A DNA stretch of 64,000 nt from Armatimonadota bacterium (lineage in GTDB: Bacteria > Armatimonadota > Fimbriimonadia > Fimbriimonadales > Fimbriimonadaceae). Positions within the stretch are counted from its first letter, which is position 1. Every line of letters starts with the position of its first letter. A program made the position numbers and the translations under genes. Shown here one piece after another: positions 1 to 10,248 of the stretch. A model generated the notes under the pieces. The model was not told the origin of the DNA and did not search any database. It worked only from the letters and a program-made list of their open reading frames with translations. Location of the stretch: assembly GCA_016223145.1 (NCBI GenBank), contig JACRPN010000004.1:62001-126000 (forward strand). The letters run 5' to 3'.

Positions 1-917
1 GCACCGCCCGGATAGAAGCCTTCGGCCCCGAACGAGACGTAGTTTTTGTAGGTCGAGAGATAGTCAAACGGCTTGCGCCAGGCCGTATCCCAGATGTTGG
101 AAATCGTGGGGATGCCCGGCATGTATTTTCGGCGAACGGCCTCCAGCTCCATTAACCGAGACACAGTGACGTCGGACCAGTAGCGGTGGAGGTCCAAGTA
201 TCGCTCAGAGGGGCCGGGGCCATCCTTGAGCGGCAGAACGACGTCGTCGAAGCTGTTCAGCCGACGGGACCAACGCTGCGTTGCCCAGGCCTTGTTCAAC
301 ACCTCGATTGACCCGTATTTCTGCTTCAGCCAGCCGATAAACCGCTTGCGGTCGGCCTCGGAGTAGGACATAAAACCGGCGCCGATCTCGTTGTCGTAGC
401 CCACCGCAAGGATCGCTGGATGATTGGCGTACCGCTTCAGCATGGCCTCAGCGAGGAGGACCACATGTCGGGCGTAATCCGGATCACTGATGTTGTCCAT
501 GTACCGCTCCGCAGGTGGGAGCCGCGTGCCGTTCTGGCTGATAATATCGATGCCCGGGTACTTGCGATGCAACCAGATCGGCGCCGGCATGCCGGGAATG
601 TCGAGGATCACGCGGATGCCGGCAGCATGCATCTGGTCGAGGATCTTGTCGAACCACTCGAACGAGAACTTGCCTTGGGCGGGTTCAAACGAATCCCACG
701 AGAGATCGCCCATGCGGACAACGTTGAACCCGGCTGCCCGCATGATCGCGATGTCTTGAACGATTAGCTCCGGTGTGCGGTCGATCGGCTGATAGCAGGC
801 GCCAACGAACATCCCGCTTGGCATCTTCGCGGTACCGGGCGATAGATTTGGCGGAATCAGGCTGGTCTGGTTTTCCATGGCAATACAGAGCGCGACGGCT
901 AGCGAAGCAAAAATCAT
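1..917 (-). CDS. GH42-like beta-galactosidase/glycoside hydrolase, 3' part outside window
   Basis: The reading frame starts at ATG 917 and runs off the left edge of the window (about 305 codons visible). The start overlaps the stop of the upstream fucosidase gene as ATGA, so the two are translationally coupled. The N-terminus is hydrophobic (MIFASLAVALCIA), a likely signal peptide. The mature part has the GH42 TIM-barrel pattern: a segment around VRMGDLSWDSFEP, then PAPIWLHRKYP, then YDNEIG, where the Glu is the expected acid/base residue. GH42 enzymes remove terminal beta-galactosyl or arabinosyl units. With the adjacent fucosidase this suggests uptake-linked breakdown of a fucosylated, galactose-containing glycan. 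The nucleophile region lies outside the window, so the subfamily is uncertain. Confidence 0.8.
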   Translation of the reverse strand, partial: MIFASLAVALCIAMENQTSLIPPNLSPGTAKMPSGMFVGACYQPIDRTPELIVQDIAIMRAAGFNVVRMGDLSWDSFEPAQGKFSFEWFDKILDQMHAAGIRVILDIPGMPAPIWLHRKYPGIDIISQNGTRLPPAERYMDNISDPDYARHVVLLAEAMLKRYANHPAILAVGYDNEIGAGFMSYSEADRKRFIGWLKQKYGSIEVLNKAWATQRWSRRLNSFDDVVLPLKDGPGPSERYLDLHRYWSDVTVSRLMELEAVRRKYMPGIPTISNIWDTAWRKPFDYLSTYKNYVSFGAEGFYPGG

Positions 918-2845
918 CGGCCCATCTCCTTGGCCGGCGTCAGCACGACCGAGCGGAGGTTGATCGCTTTCCAGGTCGCGGCATCCTTCGGACGAACCGA
1001 AACGACGACGTCGCCCGGTTTGTCGAACTTGAACGTCCCGAGTTCGATCGTCTTGAACCTTGCCCAGTCGCCCGTATTCGGCGCGATCCCGACGACGGTT
1101 TGCGAGCCGGCGCGAACAGCCAGCTCGGAGCCATCGCTCAAAGAGGCGATCGACGCGCTCACTCGGTAGGTCCCGGCGGCCGGGACCGTCACCGTCCACG
1201 AGGCCCAGTCCTTCGCGTCGAACCAGAAGCCGAGGTTGGGAATGCCGTCCTTCGCCTCTTCATGGATCGTCTCGCCGTGGAGCTCGGCCAGGCCGGGAGC
1301 GAGGTTCAGGACACCCTTGGCATCGGCCTCGACCTTCTGAACCACGATCGGTATCGGGACCGGCTTCAGGTTCTTACCCTTGATCTTCAGTCCGGCGGTG
1401 ATATTGGAGACCCTCTTGGCCGGAAGCTTCACCAATAATCCCGCACGGCTTTGCGACCATTCGAGCTTCCCCTTGTACCCGAGCAAAGAAACGCTCGTAA
1501 TCTTGTTCTGAGACGGATCGTCGGTCTTCCCCAGCGACCTGACGAGCAGCTCGTCGTTCCCAGGGTAAGCGAGCGAAATCGCATAGATCGTAGGACCTTG
1601 CGTCGTGAACCGAATGTCTTTCGCGGTGTAGCCAAAGTCCTCGTTGAAAGAGCCGCCTCGCGCCCGAGGCGCTCCTTCTCCATAGACCAGCCAGGGCCGA
1701 GAGCCGTAGATGGCCTCACCGTGGATCTTGATCCAGTCCGCCATCTGTTCCAGCATGGTTTCGACGTCAGGGTCGATCGAGCCATCCGGCCGCTGCACCA
1801 CGTTGAGCAGGAGGTTGCCATTCTTGCTCACGTTGTCGACCAGCATGCTGACCACCCAGTTGATGGGGCGGTATTTCCAATTCCGGTTGTAGAACCAGTC
1901 GCCGATGGAGGTATCGGTCTGCCATGGGTGGGGGTCGATCTTTGCCATGTTCCCGCGCTCGAGGTCCTCGACCCACCGCCCCTCCGACTTCTGTTTGCAG
2001 TTGTAAACCCCGTTCGGGACTGTGTTGTAGAAATGGGCGATCATGCTGAGCCCGACCTCGTTCCCAAAAGGCACGGCGCCGTCGCTATAGAGCAGATCGG
2101 GGTGGTAGTTGTCGATCAACTCCTTGATGCTCGCGTACCACTTTCGCTGCCACTTCGGATTGTTGCTGTACCAGGCGGTATCGCCTGGCTCCGCCTTCAC
2201 GTGGTAGAGATCAGCGAACTGCGGGTCGGCGCCGTCGTAGGGGATTCCCGCTTTCGGACCGGTCTTGTCGGCGCTGTGGCTCGCTTGAAACCAAGTAAAG
2301 CTCGCCCCAAGGTGCTCCGAGACGCCGAACTTCAGGCCGTTCTTCCTGGCCTCGCGCTGCCAGATGCCGACCACGTCCTTCTTCGGCCCCATTTGGACCG
2401 AGTTCCAAGCATGCAGCTTCGAATTCCACAAGAAGAAGTTGTCGTGGTGCGAGCCCATGCTCACGAAGTACTTCGCGCCCGCCTTCTTGTAGAGCTTCAT
2501 CAGCCGGGCCGGGTCCCACTTCTCGGCCTTCCAGAGCGGAATGATGTCCTTATAGCCAAAGGTCGACGGGTGGCCGTAGTGGGCGAGGTGGTACTTGTTG
2601 TGGCCGCTGCCCTGCTCGTACATGCCGCGCGCGTACCAATCGCCGTCCATCGGCACCGACTGCGGCCCCCAATGCGCCCAAATGCCGAACTTGGCGTCGC
2701 GAAACCAATCCGGATACTCGTACCTCTTCAACGAGTCCATCGTCGGTTTGAACGGCCCAGGCATGACCGGCAAACTTTGGGCATCGGCAAAAGCGATCGT
2801 GGCGCCTGCGGCGCAGTAGAGGGCGCCCCTCGAAATCCTTGCCAT
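914..2845 (-). CDS. Alpha-L-fucosidase, GH29, secreted
   Basis: The 643-residue protein begins with a signal-like stretch (ALYCAAGATIAFADA). It carries GH29 hallmarks: DWFRDAKFGIWAHWGPQSVP near residue 45, SMGSHHDNFFLWNS, GVSEHLG, and LLYSDG near residue 250, whose Asp matches the GH29 nucleophile. The region from about 500 onward is a beta-rich accessory domain. GH29 enzymes release alpha-L-fucose by a retaining mechanism. The gene is first in a two-gene operon with the GH42 gene (4-bp overlap). A divergently transcribed AraC-type regulator starts 175 bp away and is the obvious candidate controller. Confidence 0.93.
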   Translation of the reverse strand: MARISRGALYCAAGATIAFADAQSLPVMPGPFKPTMDSLKRYEYPDWFRDAKFGIWAHWGPQSVPMDGDWYARGMYEQGSGHNKYHLAHYGHPSTFGYKDIIPLWKAEKWDPARLMKLYKKAGAKYFVSMGSHHDNFFLWNSKLHAWNSVQMGPKKDVVGIWQREARKNGLKFGVSEHLGASFTWFQASHSADKTGPKAGIPYDGADPQFADLYHVKAEPGDTAWYSNNPKWQRKWYASIKELIDNYHPDLLYSDGAVPFGNEVGLSMIAHFYNTVPNGVYNCKQKSEGRWVEDLERGNMAKIDPHPWQTDTSIGDWFYNRNWKYRPINWVVSMLVDNVSKNGNLLLNVVQRPDGSIDPDVETMLEQMADWIKIHGEAIYGSRPWLVYGEGAPRARGGSFNEDFGYTAKDIRFTTQGPTIYAISLAYPGNDELLVRSLGKTDDPSQNKITSVSLLGYKGKLEWSQSRAGLLVKLPAKRVSNITAGLKIKGKNLKPVPIPIVVQKVEADAKGVLNLAPGLAELHGETIHEEAKDGIPNLGFWFDAKDWASWTVTVPAAGTYRVSASIASLSDGSELAVRAGSQTVVGIAPNTGDWARFKTIELGTFKFDKPGDVVVSVRPKDAATWKAINLRSVVLTPAKEMGR

Positions 2846-3020
2846 AGGGAAAGTATGTCCCGCCCTGTAGCGACTCGCAGAGGTCTGGAGTCAAGACTCT
2901 TGCCCAACTCTCCCAAGGATTTTCGGATTCTCGTGCTAGCAAATACGCGGCCATCTGCTTGATCGCGATTCGAATTGCGTACTATGGTGACGAAGTCGGG
3001 TTCTGGGCTACGATGAGAAG

Positions 3021-3788
3021 ATGAGCCGGCGAAAAGCGCCAAAGGTGGTCTATGCCGGAGGCTATGAGGGCACGACCGACTTTCCAGATCATCGTCATGC
3101 GCACGCCTGGGAGCTGATTTACCTCGGCGAAGGCTCGATCAGGGAGAGGATTGGGAAAGAAGTCCGGGAAATGGAACCCGGCACTTTCATTTTGCTTCCC
3201 CCGAGTACCGTTCACGGTGATTCCCCGAATGGCCGCTACTTCCTCTATCACGTCCTGGTCGCTTCTGAGCATCCGCTGGGTTGGCCGCGTTTTGGGAATG
3301 ATCTCGAAGGGGAGCCGATTCGCGCCGTCCTGGACTTGCTCGTCCGCGAATGGTACAGCAACGGAATCCAGCGGGAGGCGGTCATCCGCCATTGCGCATC
3401 CATGCTCGATGTCCTGATGAAGCGTTGTGCCGTTCAAGCCGAGGAATCCCAAGTCGCCCGGAATGTCGTCGCCACCGTCTGCGGCCACTTCAGGCGCGAT
3501 TTCCGCAGTTCGCTCAAGGTGGAGACGATCTCTCGCGGCCTGAACATCTCCAGATCTACCCTCTTTTCATACTTCAGGATAGTCCTGGACCGGACTCCCC
3601 AATCGGTGCTCGACAGCATCCGTCTCGAACACGCGGTCTATCTCTTGAAGCACTCGGAACTGCCCATCGAACAGGTCGCTCTCGGTTCGGGCTTCTGCTC
3701 TTCTAGCCACCTGGGCCGCAAGCTGCGGCGTGCTTTTCAGATGACCGCCCGCCAGATCCGCGAATCTTGCGTCGAGCAAGTGCCTTGA
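3021..3788 (+). CDS. AraC-family transcriptional regulator with cupin sensor
   Basis: The 255-residue protein has an N-terminal cupin-like domain (HRHAHAWELIYLGEGSI, then PGTFILLPPSTVHG), which usually binds a sugar ligand. The C-terminal AraC/XylS double helix-turn-helix spans roughly residues 155-250, with GLNISRSTLFSYFR in the first HTH and QVALGSGFCSSSHLGRKLRR in the second. It is divergent to the GH29-GH42 operon, so it probably regulates fucoside and galactoside use. Direct regulation is inferred from gene order only. The 175-bp spacer shows no clear operator by eye. Confidence 0.88.
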   Translation: MSRRKAPKVVYAGGYEGTTDFPDHRHAHAWELIYLGEGSIRERIGKEVREMEPGTFILLPPSTVHGDSPNGRYFLYHVLVASEHPLGWPRFGNDLEGEPIRAVLDLLVREWYSNGIQREAVIRHCASMLDVLMKRCAVQAEESQVARNVVATVCGHFRRDFRSSLKVETISRGLNISRSTLFSYFRIVLDRTPQSVLDSIRLEHAVYLLKHSELPIEQVALGSGFCSSSHLGRKLRRAFQMTARQIRESCVEQVP

Positions 3789-3932
3789 GCCCGTGGGCCA
3801 ACTGGATCGTCGGATCCCGTCTCATGTCGCTTCGCCTCGTCTTTGATTCCGAACGGCTCATCGATCGTACAGACGAGGGCGAAGTTAAGTTCAGACTTTC
3901 TGCCCGATTCCTGCCCCGAGCCAAACGGAGGA

Positions 3933-4108
3933 CCTCTTCCATTCCAGGGAAGAGGTTACAAACTCAAATACCCCTCGGGTCTCTCAGCTGGTCTCTCAAT
4001 TGAGTTGAATGACAACTGAGAGACAAAGCACACTCTTGGCTTGTTCTGTGCAAGCTGTGCTGGTCGGGGCGACACGATTCGAACGTGCGACCTCTTCCAC
4101 CCCATGGA
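3933..4108. repeat. Direct repeat copy A (left boundary of cassette; contains tRNA-Pro 3' half)
   Basis: This 176-bp stretch aligns without gaps to 6707-6882, with about 14 mismatches by hand count. All mismatches lie in the first 128 bp. The last 48 bp (4061-4108) are identical to the 3' half of the tRNA-Pro gene, from the anticodon loop to CCA. Copy A has no matching 5' tRNA half, so it is a tRNA fragment. Full repeat plus tRNA at one end and a 3' tRNA fragment at the other is the usual footprint of site-specific integration into a tRNA 3' end. The strand of the fragment is minus, like the intact tRNA. No integrase is seen. Confidence 0.85.
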
Positions 4109-4200
4109 GAGAATGGCAGGTTCAGCGAACAGATTTTGAATCTACAGACGTCTCAGGAAGTCTCATTCTGTCTCTGTGAATTGAGAGACATTTGAGAGAC
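3979..4200. other. Cluster of TCTCTCA / TGAGAGA motifs around the left att-like repeat
   Basis: The heptamer TCTCTCA or its reverse complement recurs at about 3980, 3992, 4016, 4182 and 4193, with weaker GTCTCA forms at 4150 and 4160. Some are paired as inverted repeats (GGTCTCTCAATTGAG, and GTCTCT...AGAGAC at 4170-4189). The three left-hand ones also occur at matching places in copy B (about 6754-6797). Such directly and inversely repeated short sites flanking a core attachment site resemble integrase or excisionase arm-type sites. That role is inferred. Alternatively they could be transcription-factor operators. Confidence 0.5.
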
Positions 4201-4256
4201 CAAGCATCCCGTTTCTCGACCAGCAAATTCCAGAATATATGTAGGCGTATGTCTGC

Positions 4257-4271
4257 TATACTCTAAGGACC
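4257..4271 (+). promoter_or_regulatory. Candidate -10 (TATACT) and ribosome binding site of the DUF1848 gene
   Basis: TATACT at 4257-4262 lies in an A+T-rich stretch, and CTAAGGACC follows immediately before the GTG start at 4272. AAGGA is a reasonable Shine-Dalgarno core and supports that GTG. No good -35 hexamer is visible, and the -10 is so close to the start that a transcript from it would have almost no leader. The promoter part is therefore weak. Confidence 0.3.
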
Positions 4272-5192
4272 GTGGTTATCTCCGCGAGCCGCAAGACCGA
4301 CATCCCAGCGTTTTACGGCGATTGGATGCTGAATCGGCTTGATGAAGGCTACTCCGTGATGCGAAACTCCTTCACGAGGCAGCCCAAGCGCGTGTCGTTG
4401 GCACGTGAAGACGTGGATGCCTTCGTCTTCTGGACCAAGAACCCCAAGCCATTCGTGCCGGCGCTTTCCGAGATCGCGCGCCGCGGGTTCCCTTTCTACA
4501 TGCACGTCACAGTGACTGGCTATGGCCCGCCGATGGAGCGGTCTGTGGCGAGTTGGGGGTCGGTTGTCCAGTGCTGCCGGAGGATCATTGACACGTGCGG
4601 CCCGCGAACGGTTGCGTGGCGCTACGACCCGATCGTCGTTACGGAGGCGATGACTCCGAGGTGGCACGAAGAGAACTTCGCCCGAATCGCCGACTCCTTC
4701 GTGGGGATCTCCGACGAAGTGGCGACTTCTTTCGTGGAGCCCTACCGAAAGGTGCGGCAGAACCTGGACCGTTTGACTGCCTCAACCGGGGTCCGATGGC
4801 GCGATCCCGATCTGGAGCAGAAAAGTTGCCTCGTTCGACGCCTATCAGAACTGGCAAGCGAGCGAGGAATGCTGCTCAGGGTCTGTTCGCAGCCACTCGT
4901 CGCCGATGGTCTTCCGGAAGGGTGTTGCATCGATCCGGTCCGCCTTCGAGACGTGGGTGCCATCTTGGTGGCTCCTCGACACGCTCCCACACGGGCTGGA
5001 TGCAACTGCATCCGAAGCGTCGATATCGGGGAATACGACACCTGTCCGCAGGGATGTGCCTACTGCTATGCGAATCGTGATCAAGAGACGGCCGCGAGGA
5101 ATCTGAAGGAGAATGATCGGACATCGTCGTGTCTTGATGGCTCACTTCAGAAGAAGCAGGAGAGCAACGCCCAACTGCGGCTGATCGTGTAA
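4272..5192 (+). CDS. DUF1848 family protein with C-terminal CxxxCxxC (radical-SAM-like) motif
   Basis: The 306-residue protein starts at GTG with the typical family opening VISASRKTDIPAFYGDWM. The middle contains RYDPIVVTEAMTP and a helical FVEPYRK segment, in keeping with a TIM-barrel-like fold. Near the C-terminus are Cys244 and Cys246, then CPQGCAYC at 258-265, a CxxxCxxC spacing as used to bind the 4Fe-4S cluster of radical SAM enzymes. The tail after about residue 270 is polar and probably disordered. The family's reaction is not known to me; a link to spore-photoproduct-lyase-like chemistry is only an idea. It is the first gene of a cassette followed by a methyltransferase and an AlkB-like dioxygenase, all between tRNA-Pro repeats. 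Confidence 0.85.
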   Translation: MVISASRKTDIPAFYGDWMLNRLDEGYSVMRNSFTRQPKRVSLAREDVDAFVFWTKNPKPFVPALSEIARRGFPFYMHVTVTGYGPPMERSVASWGSVVQCCRRIIDTCGPRTVAWRYDPIVVTEAMTPRWHEENFARIADSFVGISDEVATSFVEPYRKVRQNLDRLTASTGVRWRDPDLEQKSCLVRRLSELASERGMLLRVCSQPLVADGLPEGCCIDPVRLRDVGAILVAPRHAPTRAGCNCIRSVDIGEYDTCPQGCAYCYANRDQETAARNLKENDRTSSCLDGSLQKKQESNAQLRLIV

Positions 5193-5249
5193 CGGACCCA
5201 CCGCTCGTTTTTCAGATAGCCCGGCCCTGCTGGTTGACATAAATAGCCC

Positions 5250-6149
5250 TTGGGGCTGAACAGAAGTGTGTTCCGCCATTTCATTCAAGGGATCCTCCGT
5301 CGATTAAGGGGATCGTCCTGGGTTCAGAACCTGATGCGCACGCATGGAAGGCACTTTGATCTTCACTTGAGAATCTCTGTGCTCGAACGGGGCCGTGGGG
5401 ACTATCCGGCCTTCGAGCACGCCTGTTTGTACGCTTACCGCTACATGGGCATGCACGCCGATGCGCTTGCCGCAGTCCTAGAGCGAACTCTCACCGCAGA
5501 TCAGCTGCCGGGCCGTGACGATGTTGTACTGGACTTCGGCTGTGGTCCGGCGACATCCGTATTCGCCTTTGAGAGTGCAATCGGTCGATTCAGGCCGACA
5601 GCTGCTTACATTGGTGTCGAGAAGAGCCCAGCAATGCGCGAATTGGCTGCTGTCGCCCTTCACGGCGTAGGTCAATCAAGCTTTGCCATCGAGGAGACGA
5701 TTCAACAGGCCGCCATGGTTTCCGGTAACAAGACTGTAGATGGACCATCGCGCTTGTTTCTCGTGTTCTCCTACTTCTTCGGCCAAGAACTCGACGCGCG
5801 GGTCGTTCGCGAGATCTCCACAACCGTCAATGCCATTGTCCACAGATTACGGCCCTTAGAGGTCGTCACGATCTACACAAACATCGACATCGAAACCGCC
5901 AACTGGATGCCGAGCGGCGACATTCATCATTGGTATCGTCAGTTCATGAAGGAGATGGGCTGGGCTCCGCGAATCCGAAAGCTCACTTACGAGTATGTCG
6001 TGCCGAAAGACCTGGAGCTCGACGCCGAGAACGTAAGCTCTGGTGTGGTGACCTACGATGTACAACTCCATCGACCCAGGTTCGCAGATGGAAGAGAAGA
6101 ACACGCTGCCTCCCGGCATTCAACTCCTGCCGGACTACATCTCTGCTGA
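5250..6149 (+). CDS. Class I SAM-dependent methyltransferase of unknown target
   Basis: The open frame begins at TTG 5250. An internal ATG at 5334 (MRTHGRHFDLHL) is a possible alternative start, and neither has a strong ribosome binding site. Residues near 93-103 (VVLDFGCGPATS) are the SAM-binding motif I, and YIGVEKS about 30 residues later fits the acidic motif II. The N-terminal part is helical (HACLYAYRYMGMHADAL). The C-terminus contains DIHHWYRQFMKEMGW. Substrate cannot be deduced; the motif loosely recalls Rsm22-type rRNA methyltransferases. The 3' end overlaps the AlkB-like gene by up to 92 bp, so the two are probably coupled. The codon and base mix looks less G+C-rich than neighbouring chromosomal genes (judged by eye). 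Confidence 0.72.
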   Translation: MGLNRSVFRHFIQGILRRLRGSSWVQNLMRTHGRHFDLHLRISVLERGRGDYPAFEHACLYAYRYMGMHADALAAVLERTLTADQLPGRDDVVLDFGCGPATSVFAFESAIGRFRPTAAYIGVEKSPAMRELAAVALHGVGQSSFAIEETIQQAAMVSGNKTVDGPSRLFLVFSYFFGQELDARVVREISTTVNAIVHRLRPLEVVTIYTNIDIETANWMPSGDIHHWYRQFMKEMGWAPRIRKLTYEYVVPKDLELDAENVSSGVVTYDVQLHRPRFADGREEHAASRHSTPAGLHLC

Positions 6150-6672
6150 AGAGGAATGCGAACTGATCTCCCAGGTCGATAGCGGCATCTGGTCCAGCGA
6201 GCTCTCCCGCCGGGTCCAACATTACGGCTTCCGCTACGACTACCGCAAGCGCGCAGTGGACCAGTCGATGCGGCTCGGGCCGTTGCCGGGCTGGCTCCAG
6301 CAGCTGGCCAATCGGCTCTTTGAAGGCGGCATCTTCGAGCAAGCACCTGACCAAGTGATCATCAACGAGTACCTTCCTGGTCAGGGAATTGCCGCGCACG
6401 TGGACTGCGAGCCGTGCTTCGGACCCGTCATTGCAAGCCTGTCACTTTGTGCGCCGGTCCCAATGGTCTTTGGAGACCGGAAAACTCGCGACGTGCTCGA
6501 GGTTGACCTGCCTCCAAGAAGCCTGCTCCTTCTTTCGGGTCTGGGACGCTACGAATGGACGCATTCGATTCTGGCGCGCAAAACGGACACAATTGATGGC
6601 GATTCGAGGGAGCGTGCCAGGCGTGTGTCCCTTACTTTCAGAACGGTGATCCCTAACCAGCCTGCAAGTTGA
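6058..6672 (+). CDS. AlkB-like 2-oxoglutarate/Fe(II) dioxygenase
   Basis: The 204-residue protein has the full AlkB set: NEYLPGQGIAAHVD with the iron-binding HxD pair at His114 and Asp116, the distal His169 in EWTHSIL, and the 2-oxoglutarate-binding pattern RVSLTFR at 189-195. Family members oxidatively remove methyl groups from N1-methyladenine or N3-methylcytosine in DNA or RNA, or from other alkyl adducts. Substrate-lid residues are near 50-75. A second ATG at 6088 (MEEKNTLPPG) is a plausible start. The gene overlaps the upstream methyltransferase and ends 35 bp before the right-hand cassette repeat. Pairing of a methyl writer and a methyl eraser is the notable context. Confidence 0.9.
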   Translation: MYNSIDPGSQMEEKNTLPPGIQLLPDYISAEEECELISQVDSGIWSSELSRRVQHYGFRYDYRKRAVDQSMRLGPLPGWLQQLANRLFEGGIFEQAPDQVIINEYLPGQGIAAHVDCEPCFGPVIASLSLCAPVPMVFGDRKTRDVLEVDLPPRSLLLLSGLGRYEWTHSILARKTDTIDGDSRERARRVSLTFRTVIPNQPAS

Positions 6673-6706
6673 AGTGAGGCGAAAGAGCCCGCGTCCCTTG
6701 CGTGAG

Positions 6707-6882
6707 CCTCTTCCATTCCAGGGAAGAGGTTACAGACTCAAATACACCTTGGATCTCTCAGTTGGTCTCTCAATTGAGTTGAGTGACAATTGAGAGACGG
6801 AGTGCATTCTTGGCGTGTTCTGTGCAAGTTGTGCTGGTCGGGGCGACACGATTCGAACGTGCGACCTCTTCCACCCCATGGA
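6707..6882. repeat. Direct repeat copy B (right boundary of cassette)
   Basis: This is the partner of 3933-4108, gap-free over 176 bp. Positions 6707-6834 are the sequence just downstream of the tRNA-Pro gene and carry a 12-bp inverted repeat (GTCTCTCAATTG with CAATTGAGAGAC, 10-nt loop, about 6764-6797). Positions 6835-6882 are the 3' half of the intact tRNA-Pro. The 48-bp tRNA part is identical in both copies, while the flank has diverged by about 11%. A short hairpin (CCTCTTCC...GGAAGAGG, 6707-6729) lies at the outer edge and could help end the tRNA transcript. Confidence 0.85.
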
Positions 6883-6911
6883 AGCGCGCTACCAAACTGC
6901 GCCACGCCCCG
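6835..6911 (-). tRNA. tRNA-Pro (anticodon GGG)
   Basis: Read on the minus strand, the gene folds as a standard cloverleaf. The acceptor is CGGGGCG paired with CGCCCCG. The D arm is GCGC/GCGC around AGTTTGGTA. The anticodon stem CTTCC/GGAAG holds loop ATGGGGT with GGG at 34-36. The T arm contains TTCGAAT, and the 3' CCA is encoded. Its 3' half is duplicated at 4061-4108 and its 5' half is duplicated in tandem upstream (6912-7151). It is therefore both an integration target and the source of a repeat array. Confidence 0.93.
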
Positions 6912-7151
6912 ACCAGATTGTCTTCGAGAGGGCGCACGGTGCAACCTTCCCGACTCCATCGGGACGCGCCGCCAAACTGCGCCACGCCCCGACCAGATTG
7001 TCTTCGAGAGGGCGCACGGTGCAACCTTCCCGACTCCATCGGGACGCGCTACCAAACTGCGCCACGCCCCGACCAGATTGTCTTCGAGAGGGCGCACAAT
7101 GCGACCTTCCCGATCCTCGGGACGCCCTGCCATACTGCGCCACGCCCCGAC
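6912..7151 (-). repeat. Tandem array of three tRNA-Pro-derived units (80, 80, 78 bp)
   Basis: Upstream of the intact tRNA, the 5' half of tRNA-Pro recurs with 5' ends at 6991, 7071 and 7149 (minus strand), each followed by unit-specific sequence ending in CTCGAAGACAATCTG. The D arm is kept. In the units with 5' ends at 6991 and 7071 the anticodon arm becomes TCCCG-ATGGAGT-CGGGA, a perfect 5-bp stem and 7-nt loop with GGA in the anticodon position. The outermost unit has a 5-nt loop. The T arm is replaced (GCACCGTGCGCCC), so these are not normal tRNAs. They may be relics of repeated integrations or a set of tRNA-like small RNAs. The bases from 7152 to about 7295 hold nothing recognised. Confidence 0.75.
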
Positions 7152-9636: not shown

Positions 9637-10248
9637 ATGTCTGACAAGAGCATGAAAGCTGAAGAGGCCGTCGAAGACGGCGGGAAGAAGAAGAAGGGCG
9701 GGAAGCTTCCGATCATCCTGGCTCTGGTGCTGCTGCTTGGCGGTGGTGGGTTCTTTGCCATGAAAATGAAGGCCAAGGGGGCTGCAAAGGAACCCGAGAT
9801 CAAGCTCGGAGAGATCGTGCCGATCCCGGAGATTCTGGTCAATCTGCAAGGGGGCGAGACCTATGCGAGGGCGGAGATCTTCGTCCAGCTCAAGGAAGGT
9901 TACAAGAAGGAAGAGTTCGACAGGCTGCTGCAAACGGTCCGCGAGGCGGCACAGCTTGTCATCAACAGCCACACCGAGTCCGAAGTGGCCACCTATGACG
10001 GCAAGATGGCGCTCAAGAAGGAGCTTGCGGAGGCCATAAACGCGGTGCTGGCAGAAGGGGACAAGGAACACCAGAGCGAGCCCGCGGGACCAGAAAAGAA
10101 GAACCAAGAGGGTGGTTCGAAGGTCCAGGAATCCCACGCGGACCCCAAGAAAGCAGAGGAGAAGAAGAAGAAGAAGGGCCACGAGTCCTGGGACAGTGAG
10201 ACGGGGCCGGTCCTCAAGGTCATCTTGGCATCGTTCGCCACGCAGTAG
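9637..10248 (+). CDS. FliL-like flagellar basal-body protein
   Basis: The ATG at 9637 follows GAGGA at suitable spacing and is preferred over an upstream TTG. The protein (203 residues) has a Lys-rich cytoplasmic N-terminus, a single membrane helix (PIILALVLLLGGGGFFAM, about 26-45) and a periplasmic FliL domain (EIVPIPEILVNLQGGETYARAEIFVQL). An unusual charged linker (about 145-185, with runs of Lys and Glu) is inserted before the typical C-terminal GPVLKVILASF. FliL associates with the stator and MotAB region. No other flagellar genes occur in the window, so the assignment rests on the sequence alone. Confidence 0.75.
   Translation: MSDKSMKAEEAVEDGGKKKKGGKLPIILALVLLLGGGGFFAMKMKAKGAAKEPEIKLGEIVPIPEILVNLQGGETYARAEIFVQLKEGYKKEEFDRLLQTVREAAQLVINSHTESEVATYDGKMALKKELAEAINAVLAEGDKEHQSEPAGPEKKNQEGGSKVQESHADPKKAEEKKKKKGHESWDSETGPVLKVILASFATQ

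Follow-up and report, generated by a model that had tools for sequence, protein, structure and literature searches.

Three closely spaced genes beside a tRNA-Pro gene in a Fimbriimonadaceae relative (Armatimonadota; genome of 3.87 Mb) raise the question of how they came to lie there and whether their products act together. The genes encode a DUF1848 protein, a methyltransferase-like protein and an AlkB-like oxygenase, and they occupy positions 4272-6672 of the 64,000-nucleotide (nt) stretch of DNA that was analysed here and that is referred to as the window (contig C4:62001-126000). An earlier note on this DNA had proposed that they form a self-contained module for nucleic-acid modification, repair or defence. 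Our analyses indicate that the genes are carried by a mobile unit, and that they may encode a three-enzyme RNA-modification module with a plausible role in defence, a reading to which we assign almost even chances.

A tRNA-integrated unit without an integrase

The three open reading frames (ORFs) are all real and lie on the same strand (+) in the order DUF1848, methyltransferase and AlkB. The first two are separated by 57 nt (75 nt if counted from a GTG) and the last two overlap by 59-92 nt. This long overlap seems to be secondary, because the C terminus of the window methyltransferase extends about 25 amino acids (aa) beyond those of its homologues, and because the AlkB start at 6091 is likelier than that at 6058. 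The row is enclosed by a direct repeat of 176 nt (3933-4108 and 6707-6882; 92% identity), the right copy of which reaches 48 nt into tRNA-Pro(GGG), that is, into the 3' part of the intact gene. The ORFs, their spacing and this repeat at tRNA-Pro bear out the earlier description of a three-gene unit with overlapping last ORFs between attachment-site (att)-like repeats.

The sequence GTCTCTCAATT, counted with at most 1 mismatch, was found at 8 sites in the window, 6 of these 8 lying at one or other end of the unit. Since only 0.91 sites were expected, the repeat ends were judged to be beyond chance. The same sites are common to the cassette ends and to a tRNA-integrase interval on contig C8 of this genome. 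There, the integrase gene adjoins an intact tRNA-Val gene, and its product is 52% identical to an integrase encoded beside a tRNA-Leu-type array in genome G165. This integrase-bearing element (L188:3153-7520, G000:C8), which also has a gene for a TraG/FtsK-like ATPase, is a candidate helper. Neither the interval between the repeats nor the rest of contig C4 was found to encode an integrase. Given this absence and the ends and GTCTCTCAATT sites that the cassette shares with the C8 integrase element, it is best read as non-autonomous, and its description as an integrase-less, tRNA-integrated element of 2.77 kb is well supported. The idea that the cassette encodes its own mobility was rejected, as no integrase is present. 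A tyrosine integrase acting in trans would mobilize the element and insert it at tRNA-Pro(GGG), on the side of the anticodon loop, so that the tRNA would remain intact at one flank of the element while the other flank would carry a tRNA fragment of 48 nt. In all, the repeats, the tRNA-Pro target and the shared ends agree with the view that this is one mobile unit.

A 20-nt probe for the left end (at most 2 mismatches) detected matches in 19 of the 85 genomes of the family, with 28 sites listed versus 4 for a reversed control; 3 of the listed sites are unlike element ends. Most of the sites are localized 3' of tRNA-Pro or other tRNA 3' fragments (including, as judged from the sequence, those for Leu, Val and Arg), sometimes in tandem arrays such as that of G014, where 3 lie within 9 kb. 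The Fimbriimonadaceae loci L166, L167-L170 and L171-L183 contain elements that are associated with tRNA genes of various kinds and share a single conserved left end, and their cargo includes genes for sugar use and metal efflux. Another copy of the left end was found at C4:54849, which is 11.3 kb upstream of the cassette's own, and an upstream sister element for sugar use, about 11 kb long, seems to sit in tandem with the cassette (window 1-3932 and G000:C4:54768-65932, L031). This sister element carries genes for an AraC regulator, an alpha-L-fucosidase and further glycosidase-like proteins. Two congeners carry a different cassette in the corresponding tRNA-Pro slot, which encodes DUF1848 (81% identical), TcmP and DUF5131 and is bounded by 48-50-nt tRNA repeats that lie 3007 nt apart. 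The tRNA-Val slot of these two congeners also contains DUF1848, within differing cassettes between flanks that are 97% identical. A DNA-level search with the island against a subset of the relatives' loci gave no match. Upstream of the tRNA-Pro gene (window 6859-7151) there are 3 more head-to-tail copies, with a period of 78-80 nt, that resemble its 5' half, and similar tandem copies adjoin the tRNA-Pro genes in L038 and L042.

The unit thus resembles cis-mobilizable elements (CIMEs) and tandem tRNA islands: its att-type repeats end within an intact tRNA gene, it lacks an integrase of its own and it apparently stands in tandem with a sister element. It differs from CIMEs in that one element end serves several tRNA genes across a bacterial family, and its movement is putative.

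A permuted radical-SAM-like barrel is predicted for the DUF1848 protein

The DUF1848 protein matches PF08902 over the full profile (262/262; E 3e-81). Its CxxxCxxCYA motif is found at residues 258-267, and C258, C262 and C265 do not vary in either of two sets of diverse homologues (10 and 16 sequences). Four further invariant cysteines (C205, C219, C244 and C246) could hold a second cluster. An AlphaFold2 model was built from 16 sequences, with a predicted local distance difference test score (pLDDT) of 82 and a predicted template modelling score (pTM) of 0.83. Foldseek alone yielded no E below 0.001 and no confident fold for this model. When 999 chains were structurally realigned, the best 27 rows were all radical S-adenosylmethionine (SAM) enzymes with Z scores of 8.2-9.7, among them Elp3 (9.7), NifB (9.5), spore photoproduct lyase (9.4) and RlmN (9.3). 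Residue 1 of the model aligns past the cluster motif of the partners (aligned ranges 134-341 in spore photoproduct lyase and 171-364 in RlmN). A local hhalign comparison paired the DUF1848 and DUF5131 profiles in swapped order (256-271 with 20-35, and 15-75 with 30-86), the match being weak with a probability of about 50% at best. No solved structure related to DUF1848 by sequence was found, and in Pfam the protein matched PF08902 only and not the Radical_SAM model.

The simplest reading of these data is that DUF1848 is a circularly permuted radical-SAM-like barrel with the CxxxCxxC motif at its C terminus. Because of this motif position and the missing Radical_SAM match, we refer to the protein as 'radical-SAM-like, permuted' rather than as a PF04055 member. 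Like the radical SAM enzymes (Elp3, NifB, spore photoproduct lyase and RlmN) and DUF5131, it combines the barrel fold, predicted in its case, with a CxxxCxxC motif that is followed by an aromatic residue. The canonical motif of radical SAM enzymes lies near the N terminus, in the loop that follows strand 1, whereas that of DUF1848 is C-terminal and accompanied by extra invariant cysteines. In its annotation of DUF1848, Pfam already draws a parallel between the cysteines at the C terminus and those found in radical SAM proteins. The radical-SAM-like character that the earlier note had considered possible is thus upheld by the invariant motif and by the barrel prediction, although the motif is not in the canonical N-terminal place. 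In the literature searched, no paper mentioning DUF1848 was found.

The partner proteins resemble METTL17/Rsm22 and ALKBH8

The methyltransferase gave a weak Pfam match (E about 0.01); it has, however, a conserved motif I (DFGCGPAT). The predicted model of this protein (METHYLTRANSFERASE) was modest (pLDDT 67). In structural comparisons, nine METTL17/Rsm22 entries reached Z scores of 13.4-14.6, versus 10.5 for the next family, the best match being 8css (Z 14.6; 3.6 Å over 227 residues), and an alignment search matched METTL17 at E 0.011. By predicted fold, the protein thus appears closest to METTL17/Rsm22, the mitoribosomal small-subunit factors with which it shares a helix-rich segment before motif I. 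Unlike these, it lies below the reach of the Pfam Rsm22 model (PF09243): the window protein did not match, and a homologue (L076) scored 20.5 bits, where the cut-off is 23. We therefore use the label 'Rsm22-like' rather than family membership. Motif I and the predicted fold together agree with the SAM methyltransferase assigned previously. Scans of viral sequences with the methyltransferase alignments yielded no relative.

The AlkB-like ORF matches PF13532 (E 8.7e-23). Its iron site HxD...H (H103, D105 and H158) and the C-terminal arginines R177/R178/R184 are invariant in six homologues, and it is 50% identical to a plasmid gene of Roseobacter denitrificans. The best match in the PDB is human ALKBH8 (3thp), with E 3.6e-41 for an alignment and 1.1e-28 for the single sequence, the match to E. 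coli AlkB (E 4e-6) being far below this. As judged from these comparisons, the oxygenase belongs to the bacterial ALKBH8 group and not to the E. coli AlkB/ALKBH2/3 repair groups. The AlkB-type dioxygenase proposed earlier is therefore retained, but not its default interpretation as an oxidative demethylase or repair enzyme; likewise, an 'ordinary AlkB repair gene' was rejected as the default in view of the ALKBH8 grouping. The bacterial ALKBH8 proteins, which include those of R. etli, Roseobacter and Agrobacterium, make up a fourth group of AlkB proteins; they have neither an RNA recognition motif (RRM) nor methyltransferase domains, and their substrate is open (PMC4051686). The window protein shares with them an AlkB domain nearest ALKBH8, but lies beside a non-Trm9 methyltransferase gene and DUF1848 in a tRNA-integrated cassette. 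Eukaryotic ALKBH8 is fused to an RRM and a Trm9-type methyltransferase, whereas the window AlkB is a separate protein whose neighbour is METTL17/Rsm22-like by predicted fold.

These relationships bear on the alternative that the cassette serves the repair of alkylation damage, in which AlkB would clear etheno or methyl lesions from DNA or RNA, DUF1848 would perform repair of the spore-photoproduct-lyase type and the methyltransferase would be accessory. Bacterial ALKBH8 proteins do repair etheno-DNA in vitro (PMC4051686), the DUF1848 fold matches spore photoproduct lyase, and the AlkB partner in Planktothrix (see below) is of the ALKBH3 repair type. Nevertheless, the window AlkB is of the ALKBH8 type, and an Agrobacterium ALKBH8 knock-out was not sensitive to methyl methanesulfonate (MMS) or chloroacetaldehyde (CAA) (PMC4051686). 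In addition, the fold comparison places spore photoproduct lyase level with Elp3, NifB and RlmN, and the METTL17/Rsm22-like protein has no place in this scheme. We consider repair an unlikely role, and repair of DNA alkylation less likely than RNA modification.

The families recur together in different combinations

Among 101 genomes, including that of the window, the methyltransferase was found in 4, AlkB in 8 and DUF1848 in 8. Across the Armatimonadota, 43 of 291 genomes encode DUF1848, which mostly stands alone. A member of another Armatimonadota family (G074, matching JADFGT010000029) has the same gene order (52% and 63% identity), with DUF1848 reduced to a C-terminal remnant. This remnant (L032:7434-7652) is cut at a tRNA-Ser 3' end, so that just the C-terminal Cys motif is left. 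In Fimbriimonadaceae ACE_ARM1 (G009) and Chthonomonas UBA1950, the methyltransferase and AlkB genes face a tRNA-Ala gene, the methyltransferase of the former being frameshifted, and the AlkB genes of G004 and G023 likewise face tRNA-Ala at about 70 nt. In the Cyanobacteria, two Picosynechococcus plasmids carry the same pair: on pAQ5 it has a gene for a retron-type reverse transcriptase and an abortive infection (Abi) gene in its vicinity, and on pAQ6 a gene of a type III CRISPR system. In Picosynechococcus PCC 7117 and Synechocystis PCC 6803, plasmids encode AlkB with a second methyltransferase-like family, and on plasmid p1 of Planktothrix DUF1848 lies beside a protein of this second family and an ALKBH3-like AlkB, which makes up all three families.

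DUF1848 also adjoins methyltransferase-like genes and recombinases on prophage-like contigs; such pairs without AlkB occur in prophages and in the sister cassettes of G001 and G008. The 310-aa partner in G001 is related to the motif region of the window methyltransferase (E 1.3e-6), as is the L118/G008/G132 group of partners to the window protein (E 1.3e-4), and the Planktothrix protein matches the latter group (E 4e-5). TcmP showed no significant similarity to the window methyltransferase and is not claimed as the same family. On several phage contigs from IMG/VR (L120, L124, L128 and L129), DUF1848 has another context, in which it comes after a small conserved Cys-containing protein and before ParB-like genes. 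ALKBH8-like genes on prophage-like contigs have phage structural or unknown genes as neighbours, and no methyltransferase or DUF1848 was seen in their gene lists.

Recurrent co-occurrence, on which the idea of a common module depended, was therefore observed: the methyltransferase-AlkB pair in two phyla and all three families in three places. This makes it very unlikely that the genes are unrelated passengers, without a joint function, caught in a decaying tRNA island. Sister elements of the family do carry unrelated cargo and decay is evident in relatives (the DUF1848 fragment of G074 and the frameshifted ACE_ARM1 gene), but the window frames are intact and their active-site residues conserved. 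It is less improbable, though still doubtful, that two functional pairs, DUF1848 with the methyltransferase and the methyltransferase with AlkB, were joined by recombination, AlkB or DUF1848 being dispensable in any copy. DUF1848 with a methyltransferase-like gene but no AlkB in prophages and the G001/G008 cassettes, and methyltransferase with AlkB but no DUF1848 in Picosynechococcus, Synechocystis, ACE_ARM1 and UBA1950, would fit this scenario. Both pairs, however, include the methyltransferase, which speaks for a single pathway in which some steps are optional, and DUF1848 comes first in both Armatimonadota trios.

Links to defence systems

In a PADLOC scan, DUF1848 matched RTasDUF1848 (E 1.2e-47) and the window methyltransferase matched C3a159 (E 9e-13), both accessory families of defence reverse transcriptase (DRT)/retron systems, while AlkB matched no model; it should be noted that all matches are to accessory or candidate models and that the reverse-transcriptase link rests on PADLOC model names. 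The pAQ5 methyltransferase matched C3a159 at E 7e-125. Unlike DRT/retron systems, the window cassette has no reverse transcriptase, none being found in 3933-6911. TcmP and DUF5131, a candidate defence pair (TIGR04474) that matched PDC-M30/M41, accompany DUF1848 in the sister cassette of the two congeners, whereas the window cassette has the Rsm22-like methyltransferase and AlkB in their place. The claim that the module had not been described holds in part only, as PADLOC already includes DUF1848 and the methyltransferase family among the partners of defence reverse transcriptases.

We regard these matches as context, and not as proof, of defence. They would also suit a restriction-type anti-phage module that modifies DNA and not RNA, in line with the type III CRISPR, retron-type reverse transcriptase and Hma/DUF499-like genes near its relatives. 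Such a module is rather improbable, as the cassette has neither a nuclease nor a sensor gene and the closest characterised relatives of its methyltransferase and AlkB act on rRNA or tRNA.

Organization of the element

The features of the element are listed in Table 1. The putative promoter abuts the GTG start, which suggests that the DUF1848 mRNA may be leaderless. This promoter-like sequence (TGTAGGCGTATGTCTGCTATACT) is kept 5' of DUF1848 in one sister cassette and in part in a second. It stops about 9 nt 5' of the DUF1848 GTG (window 4240-4271; L037 9518-9548; L044 about 9935-9965).

Table 1. Features of the cassette and its tRNA-Pro target in the window.
Feature	Position	Strand	Basis
Direct repeat (176 nt), left copy, made up of the upstream sister element's right end with arm sites and of a 3' fragment of tRNA-Pro (core 4061-4108)	3933..4108	+	92% identical to 6707-6882
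Cassette left end, GAGAGAATGGCAGGTT..TTGAATCTACAGACGTCTCAG..AATTGAGAGAC, conserved, with putative integrase arm sites	4109..4205	+	recurs after tRNA 3' fragments in family genomes
Putative promoter TGTAGGCGTATGTCTGCTATACT, directly 5' of GTG start	4240..4271	+	sequence comparison
DUF1848 protein, 306 aa, GTG start	4272..5192	+	PF08902, alignment, predicted model
METTL17/Rsm22-like protein with predicted class I methyltransferase fold, 299 aa	5250..6149	+	predicted fold; PADLOC C3a159, E 9e-13
ALKBH8-group Fe(II)/2-oxoglutarate oxygenase, 193 aa from ATG 6091; ORF opens at 6058	6091..6672	+	PF13532, PDB comparison
Cassette right end with GTCTCTCAATT sites, adjoining tRNA 3' end	6707..6834	+	repeat comparison, site counts
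tRNA-Pro(GGG), intact insertion target; duplicated core 6835-6882 = 3' end to anticodon loop	6835..6911	-	tRNA and repeat calls

Discussion

We favour the view that the element carries an RNA-modification module of three enzymes. In this module, DUF1848 would act on an RNA base by radical chemistry, using SAM and a 4Fe-4S cluster at its C-terminal CxxxCxxC motif; the RNA would be bound by the Rsm22/METTL17-like protein, which would methylate or license the same site; and the ALKBH8-like oxygenase would hydroxylate the product or remove the mark. Since the module is mobile and patchy, and elsewhere tied to prophages, CRISPR and reverse-transcriptase loci, its benefit is probably conditional, for example resistance to phages or RNA-attacking toxins.

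Several observations weigh against this view. None of the three proteins has a characterised activity, substrate or phenotype. Most Armatimonadota DUF1848 genes are solitary, the three-gene order is found in two Armatimonadota only, with a fragmentary DUF1848 in one, and the Planktothrix trio has a different, ALKBH3-like AlkB and a divergent methyltransferase. The methyltransferase model had a modest pLDDT of 67, and METTL17 itself is not clearly catalytic. Finally, bacterial ALKBH8 proteins repaired etheno-DNA in vitro and the Agrobacterium knock-out kept its tRNA-Gly(UCC) wobble modification (PMC4051686).

By analogy, the proposed chemistry recalls the eukaryotic wobble-uridine series from Elp3 via a methyltransferase to ALKBH8, though the methyltransferase here is of another family. 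A bolder version, which we think has a slim chance of being right, is that of a mobile bacterial pathway in which a permuted radical SAM enzyme, an Rsm22-like methyltransferase and an ALKBH8-like hydroxylase would successively carry out wobble-uridine-like chemistry and thereby protect host RNA or mark it against phages.

For the Fimbriimonadaceae, the element end points to a common vehicle that would carry such cargo among tRNA genes across the family. The permuted radical-SAM reading gives the large, uncharacterised DUF1848 family a testable chemistry. The occurrence of the methyltransferase and AlkB as a natural pair in two phyla names the METTL17/Rsm22-like protein as the partner of ALKBH8, so that the substrate question (PMC4051686) becomes directly testable. 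If true, the three-enzyme RNA pathway would supply the missing substrate of the bacterial ALKBH8 proteins.

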